From the NCBI RefSeq assembly GCF_000184945.1, contig NZ_GL586311.1, positions 1,962,598-2,026,597 of the forward strand: DNA of 64,000 bases. The letters run 5' to 3'. The notes under the pieces are model-generated. The model had not been told where the DNA came from. It did not search any database and saw nothing but the letters and a program-made list of their open reading frames with translations. Made by a program: the position numbers and the translations under genes. Of the stretch, positions 13,077 through 62,483 are shown in pieces (positions within the stretch are counted from its first letter, which is position 1; each line of letters starts with the position of its first letter). This DNA comes from Segatella buccae ATCC 33574 (GTDB lineage Bacteria; Bacteroidota; Bacteroidia; Bacteroidales; Bacteroidaceae).

Positions 13077-13204
13077 AGAACTGCTGCCAAGTCGTGCCGG
13101 CCCATAGTATAGCATGAACTATTAAAGAATGCGAAAATACGCGACATGAGAAATGTTAAAGGGCGGAATGCAGACCGAAAACTCCACTCTCTGATGACAA
13201 GAAA

Positions 13205-13392
13205 AACGAAAAAGTTCTCCCGGTGTGGCTCTTTGACATCGTGAAAGGGCCACACCGGGAAACAGAAACGGCCGTAGTGAGAAGCCGAAAGGGCCACTTT
13301 TACGGTCACTTTTGGTTGTGATGGAAAGACAAAATGCCGGAAAATGAAAAAAGGGAAACATCTGTATGCTTCCCTTGCCAATGCAAAGATAC
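13205..13392 (-). ncRNA. candidate small RNA, family copy 1
   Basis: This intergenic stretch (13077-13460) has no credible ORF. On the minus strand it shows a full Bacteroidetes promoter: TTTG (13412-13415), 20 bp, TATCTTTG (13384-13391). About 10 nt downstream lies a hairpin (arms 13368-13374 and 13353-13359, GGGAAGC/GTTTCCC) followed by six T. The minus strand then ends, about 160 nt after the predicted start, in a perfect 12-bp stem (13249-13260 with 13218-13229) followed by a T-rich run. A related 150-bp segment with the same promoter lies at 62151-62300. The transcript is inferred. Confidence 0.5.
13218..13260 (-). terminator. perfect 12-bp hairpin with T run
   Basis: The arms TCCCGGTGTGGC (13218-13229) and GCCACACCGGGA (13249-13260) are perfect complements around a 19-nt loop that itself can pair (CTTTGAC with GTGAAAG). 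On the minus strand the stem is followed by GAACTTTTTCG, an intrinsic-terminator arrangement that would end the candidate small RNA starting near 13377. Copy 2 lacks this stem. Confidence 0.6.
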
Positions 13393-13460
13393 TGCTTTTA
13401 GGGGCAGAATGCAAATGCGTGTTGAAAAACTCTGACAGATAAATGGGGCGATCTGTACAC

Positions 13461-61879: not shown

Positions 61880-62114
61880 ATGATTCTTTTTGGAATGGCA
61901 AAGAAACGGGATTATTTGTTCAGAGGATTTTTACAGGCTGTGAAATCGTCTCTATAGTCGGATGTCGTATGTTTCATACCGTCTTCTTGGGCTTTATCGG
62001 GAGGATGGCATAGGTTATAGAGAGAAGTATATTGATATTTCGAAAAAGTTTTATACGTCTGTCAGTAGGTTTTCTTGCATGTAACAAAATGAGGGATATA
62101 AGAAGTCAAAAAAG

Positions 62115-62300
62115 AAGAAAAAATGATGCGATCAAGCCATGGTCATGAGATGAAAGGGCCACAGTGGGGATGCAATTTGGCCGTAGTGAGAAAGCCAAAT
62201 GGGCCCTTTTGCACAGTTGTTTGGGTCTGATTGCAAGGGAAATTGGGAGAAAACAAAAAAGGGAAACATCAATGTGCTTCCCTTGCTGATGCAAAGATAC
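62115..62300 (-). ncRNA. candidate small RNA, family copy 2
   Basis: Related to 13242-13392 in sequence and in plan: minus-strand TTTG (62320-62323), 20 bp, TATCTTTG (62292-62299), then GGGAAGC/GTTTCCC hairpin (62261-62282) followed by T's, a conserved body (GGCCGTAGTGAGA, GGGCC) and a T-rich 3' end (about 62107-62123). It lies in the 763-bp gap 61821-62583, which otherwise holds the uxuAB promoter and the por terminator; no ORF is credible. Confidence 0.5.
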
Positions 62301-62483
62301 AACATTTTATCGCCTTTTGCAAACGTGATGGGAGAAATGTTGACAAAAAGAGGTGGGTAAGTGTAGGGGATAAGAAATCTGGCAGATGGAGTCGGGGAGG
62401 TGCTTTTGGAATATTGAGAGAGTAGGGGGAGGAAATGACATTTTACCAATAAGGTGTGAAAAGGTGACAGTTAGGGTGAGGAT

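Follow-up and report, generated by a model that had tools for sequence, protein, structure and literature searches.

Four described systems come closest to the element analyzed here. PINSR (PMC4755523) is an intergenic, high-copy repeat of 188 bp without coding capacity or terminal inverted repeats, of unknown function and restricted to one Prevotella lineage, with P. oris being PCR-negative for it. The BrickBuilt element of Porphyromonas gingivalis (PMC4596501) is also intergenic, is present in ~19 copies, and combines a leader, tandem repeats of ~2 helical turns (a 23-nt direct repeat) and a tail, with promoter activity in leader and tail and with IS5-type inverted ends (GAGACC..GGTCTC). The E. 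coli DNA gyrase motif (PMC6379681) is a long, degenerate, dyad-symmetric motif of 130 bp that is read by shape, in which arms with a 10.75-bp GC periodicity flank a 36-bp centre. Lastly, persistent ~11-bp sequence periodicity of bacterial chromosomes is a known phenomenon (PMC3431218), although that study does not mention Prevotella or Bacteroidetes and describes no discrete element locked to the phase.

Here we describe a dispersed, mostly intergenic DNA element of about 330-375 bp found in the genome containing a 64,000-nucleotide stretch of Segatella buccae ATCC 33574 (hereafter the window). Like PINSR it is multicopy and intergenic and lacks terminal inverted repeats (4 of 65 copies overlap a long ORF call), although PINSR was found in another clade; no promoter or hairpin has been described for PINSR. 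Like BrickBuilt it has a leader-array-tail plan, although its ends differ and its repeat unit is 22 bp in three genomes and 21 bp in a fourth. Helical phasing is not mentioned for PINSR or BrickBuilt in the parts of those papers that were consulted.

A first-pass annotation of the window had proposed a small RNA gene on the minus strand, with a promoter, a hairpin and six U within about 30 nt of the start, a second perfect 12-bp terminator about 160 nt further on, and a related copy at 62151-62300 with the same promoter. Re-examination confirmed this observation. In copy 1 (minus strand), TTTG (13415-13412) is followed by a 20-nt spacer and TATCTTTG (13391-13384), and then at once by an 11-bp hairpin, AAGGGAAGCAT-ACAG-ATGTTTCCCTT (13376-13351), with a six-T run (13352-13347), placing a predicted intrinsic terminator about 5-30 nt after the predicted start. 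Copy 2, also on the minus strand, has the same plan, with TATCTTTG at 62292-62299 and a hairpin and T-run directly after it, and it aligns with copy 1 through promoter, hairpin and beyond. A scan for a Bacteroidetes-type promoter followed immediately by a stable hairpin and T5 returned only these two sites in the window, and the promoter plus AAGGGAA occurred twice in the window against 0 in 100 shuffles.

Two corrections were required. First, the distal 12-bp inverted repeat (13218-13229 / 13249-13260) is perfect, but GAAC precedes TTTTT so that the T-run starts 4 nt late, making it a poor intrinsic terminator; it was not listed by the terminator scan, it is absent from copy 2, and it is not a family feature. 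Second, the true unit is longer than proposed. Alignment of copies and junction analysis defined copy 1 as a 330-bp element at 13108-13437 (-), running from TGTCAGAG to ATGCTATA, and copy 2 as an element of exactly the same length at 62016-62345 (-), running from TGTCAACA to CTCTATA. The 5′ end carries a box, TGTCAGAGTTTTTC in copy 1 (13424-13437), that is conserved as TGTmAA..TTTC in the genome containing the window (G000), in a complete congener (G016) and in Segatella maculosa. The 3′ end carries a second box, TGTCGCGTATTTTCGCATTCTTTAATAGTTCATGCTATA in copy 1 (13108-13146), ending in CTATA.

To determine the extent of the family, pattern searches of G000 were performed. The full promoter-hairpin pattern occurred 34 times and the 3′ box 41 times, with none for either reversed control. 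Merging 5′ and 3′ hits gave 69 loci, of which 65 show the -7 box in place, giving at least 65 copies in this genome, and in 36 aligned copies TATCTTTG and the TTT of the -33 box are invariant. A covariance model of the first 99 nt found 29 copies in G016, and a second model found at least 13 in a genome (G332) that shares a copy with the S. maculosa DSM 19339 record and none in the other 273 genus genomes of at least 90% completeness. Because these searches used stricter filters and scored only 15 to 51 candidates per genome, the copy numbers are lower bounds and weak versions may be missed. A divergent version occurs 19 or more times in a Bacteroidaceae MAG, RGIG858; the hairpins of the four genomes do not align in one register.

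We next asked whether the hairpin is maintained, since compensatory change across many aligned copies had been named beforehand as a test of the small RNA proposal. In 36 copies of G000, 99.2% of pair cells are standard pairs and 25 cells are changed on both sides, against 7.7 in shuffles (0/500). G016 plus one S. maculosa copy gave the same result (27 against 13.2, 0/500). T-runs of 6-7 follow the hairpin in most copies. Thus the proximal hairpin, the part to which this test was applied, covaries in two genomes, and transcription start and immediate stop look maintained, giving a predicted RNA of about 32 nt. The interpretation offered by the first-pass annotation, either a short attenuated RNA or a 170-nt read-through RNA, was only partly supported: the locus does belong to a family with a conserved promoter and hairpin-terminator module, but a read-through RNA with its own 3′ terminator was not supported, as copy 1 lies between two converging genes, neighbouring genes point either way, the distal stem is not a family feature, and the region after the hairpin conserves DNA features (11-bp rotational phasing and 11-bp length steps) rather than sequence. 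No match to a known RNA family was detected, with 0 Rfam matches in the window at gathering score and 0 at E of 5 or less for copy 1.

A leader or attenuator controlling the downstream gene was considered, because a promoter followed by a terminator is the plan of transcription attenuators. However, copy 1 lies between two converging genes, an acyltransferase (PF01553; 11850-13076, +) and an uncharacterised nucleotidyltransferase (PF14907; 13461-14810, -), and points into the 3′ end of a converging gene. Moreover, orientation to neighbouring genes is random: 36 of 65 copies in G000 and 18 of 28 in G016 have the next downstream gene on the opposite strand, as judged from a simple ORF picker rather than an annotation. 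This contradicts the attenuator as a general explanation, and we regard it as very unlikely. A protein-coding role was also rejected, because the 22-bp units are out of frame and small ORFs over it vary from copy to copy.

Downstream of the hairpin lies an array of 22-bp modules (13177-13346 (-) in copy 1, about +45 to +215 from TATCTTTG); in copy 1 it contains the copy-specific distal inverted repeat. Sequence autocorrelation peaks at 22, 44 and 66 bp in G000, G016 and the one S. maculosa copy tested, and at 21, 42 and 63 bp in RGIG858. The repeated word differs between genomes, being GGCC-type in G000, TGCGTCAAAT-type in G016 and others elsewhere. In G016 and G000 the words are forward before about +130 and reverse-complemented after it, on one 22-bp grid (G016 forward at 72, 94 and 116, reverse at 138, 160 and 182, Fisher p 1e-9; G000, p 9e-19), whereas this inversion was not seen in 8 S. 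maculosa copies. Since copies are related by descent, simple p-values are too small, and many periods and windows were examined. Near-palindromic units on a 22-bp grid, with one word per genome, could represent an operator array for a sequence-specific regulator that co-evolves with its word in each species. Dispersed short arrays of a different 22-bp palindromic word (AAAATAGGCTATATTGGTGAGT) also occur in another Prevotella genome (G028; 64 matches, reversed control 0; L352 1530-1650 and L418-L447), without the promoter-hairpin module and with other 22-bp tandem words beside some of them. Nevertheless, words within a genome are degenerate, composition phase is better conserved than the word, and no consistent target gene was found, making this reading improbable.

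To investigate what the array conserves, its AT/GC composition was analyzed. The strongest period was 10.75-11.0 bp in all four genomes. Power at 11 bp was 6.35 in copy 1 and 11.5 in copy 2 (62085-62254, -), the latter being the only 165-bp window with power of 9 or more in the 64 kb. Measured from TATCTTTG, AT peaks fall at about +80, 91, 102, 114, 124, 136 and 146-147 in G000, G016 and G332 alike. The AT profiles correlate at 0.69-0.71 at zero shift, and the two pairs tested with shifts turn negative at half a turn, while letter identity over the same stretch is only 0.31-0.37, against 0.53-0.67 for promoter plus hairpin. Furthermore, G000 element lengths fall in classes 11 bp apart (319, 330-334, 341-342, 350-353, 362-365, 373-377 and 386); 56 of 58 lie within 2 bp of a multiple of 11, and 11 gave the highest score of the eleven periods tried. 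The agreement of phase across species with changed letters and the 11-bp length classes are the strongest evidence obtained, and they point to selection on rotational phasing of DNA. We see no need for such phasing in an RNA, whereas DNA read by shape does need it; this is the main argument for a DNA-level function.

These observations bear on the possibility of a multicopy tiny-RNA gene family, in which each copy makes a ~32-nt hairpin RNA, or by read-through a longer structured RNA, acting in trans (for example as a protein decoy) with an incidental array. In its favour, promoter and hairpin are the best-conserved parts between species, the hairpin covaries, and fold z-scores of the arrays are moderately negative. 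However, nothing in an RNA explains AT/GC phasing at fixed offsets or 11-bp length classes, there is no Rfam match and the predicted transcript is very short; we consider this explanation unlikely.

We then asked whether the periodicity extends into the surrounding chromosome. G016 and S. maculosa DNA, mostly coding, has an 11.0-bp AT periodicity coherent over lags beyond 1.6 kb (L398-L417 and L371-L378, respectively), while G000 has a weak one. In G016 the flanks are phase-locked to the element for more than a kilobase (R 0.52-0.77; jittered anchors mean about 0.17, maximum 0.43), with the lock fading and drifting with distance. In G332 (8 copies) the lock was not distinguishable from jittered anchors, and in G000 the two of four tests that masked sequence did not preclude were weak (0.34 against a jittered maximum of 0.25; 0.27 against 0.27). 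Power at 11 bp was 3.7 near G016 elements, 2.6 in generic regions and 1.3 in an element-free gap; long stretches without the element span 1.19-1.64 Mb in G016, where periodicity is weak, and 2.48-2.83 Mb in G000 (both contig C1). Two Prevotella genomes in which no copy was found (G432 and G010) also show the periodicity in the 20 kb sampled (L346 and L342, respectively), while it is near absent in others sampled. The element therefore does not cause the periodicity, and part of the array signal may be chromosomal background, although in G000 the flanks are weak and the array strong.

Taken together, the data suggest a dispersed chromosomal DNA element that is not primarily an RNA gene. The sequence itself establishes the anatomy: defined ends, a promoter followed at once by a hairpin-terminator, about 15 turns of DNA with AT-rich steps every ~11 bp built of 22-bp modules (inverted about a centre near +130 in G000 and G016), and a rotational register to the promoter and the 3′ box that is conserved while letters change, extending in G016 to the surrounding chromosome. 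Transcription, protein binding, bending and function are inferred throughout. The best-supported reading is a bending or wrapping site with a tiny transcription unit beside it. We propose that the array is read by shape and that a DNA-wrapping protein wraps the ~160-bp phased segment, the first candidate being DNA gyrase, with the arms of its wrap held by the GyrA C-terminal domains, and otherwise an HU-like nucleoid protein. In this view the promoter would drive only a ~32-nt terminated transcript, holding RNA polymerase and open DNA at the edge of the wrapped segment while keeping transcription out of it, and the element would be a topological or nucleoid-folding site between genes. We consider this model as a whole about as likely as not, and the assignment to gyrase specifically remains doubtful. 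The E. coli gyrase motif is the closest known match in kind, with comparable periodicity; in the present element symmetry was seen in G000 and G016 only, the phasing is longer (~165 bp) and runs through the centre without an aperiodic segment, a promoter and terminator are attached, and RGIG858 has a 21-bp unit.

A broader reading, possible but less likely than not, is a new class of bacterial chromosome-architecture element: dispersed, rotationally phased wrapping sites, each with its own tiny promoter-terminator unit, set in register with a chromosome-wide 11-bp lattice and evolving under a rule that conserves helical phase rather than sequence. Long-range ~11-bp periodicity has been described without a defined functional site attached to it. 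A discrete, multicopy element whose length and composition follow the helical pitch makes the question of whether rotational phase matters in a bacterial nucleoid directly testable. It also warns that promoter-terminator pairs in Bacteroidota need not be small-RNA genes.

Finally, the history of the family was considered, including the alternative that it is a selfish non-coding repeat (MITE-like or PINSR-like) spread by an unknown enzyme, with promoter and array as passengers or serving mobility and the array merely following the chromosome's own periodicity. Sharp ends, high copy number, restricted distribution, different sides or orientation at some homologous loci and the existence of chromosome-wide periodicity are consistent with this idea. 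However, the 5′ (TGTmAA) and 3′ (CTATA) ends are not inverted copies, and only 1 of 42 copies had a flanking match of 4 bp or longer against 1.2 expected, so that neither terminal inverted repeats nor a target-site duplication characteristic of a classical MITE was found. No copy with a gene inside was seen; 3′ boxes lay within about 390 bp of a 5′ half, apart from four without an exact TATCTTTGCA in range. Some sites are shared between species, G000 flanks also nearly lack the periodicity of its arrays, and we regard the selfish-repeat reading as unlikely. A SINE-like, RNA-copied element was likewise judged unlikely because the upstream promoter lies inside the conserved unit. Searches for plasmid or phage carriage gave no match for the one copy examined, and positions relative to dnaA (which lies at 33 kb in G000 and at 2.587 Mb in G016) revealed no clear rule for an origin- or terminus-guided distribution, as a nucleoid-occlusion role might suggest.

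Some elements appear to hold the same site in different species (L313/L305 and L263/L340), with conserved 5′ parts and changed arrays, whereas others lie on another side of the same gene or in opposite orientation, as at L242/L288, where the element is upstream of the same gene (80% identical protein) in two species but inverted. The family thus looks old and moves at times, and its arrays change letters in concert while keeping phase. At the 3′ flank of several copies (e.g. L247, L225, L251 and L257) a second repeat, GGGAG..CCTCCCCCGACCCCTCC, often starts directly at the end of the element, and at one locus (L270) an extra 3′-box-like sequence (CTTTTTCTCAATCTTGGTAAGTTTGGTACTATA) follows the element's own 3′ box, after +330.
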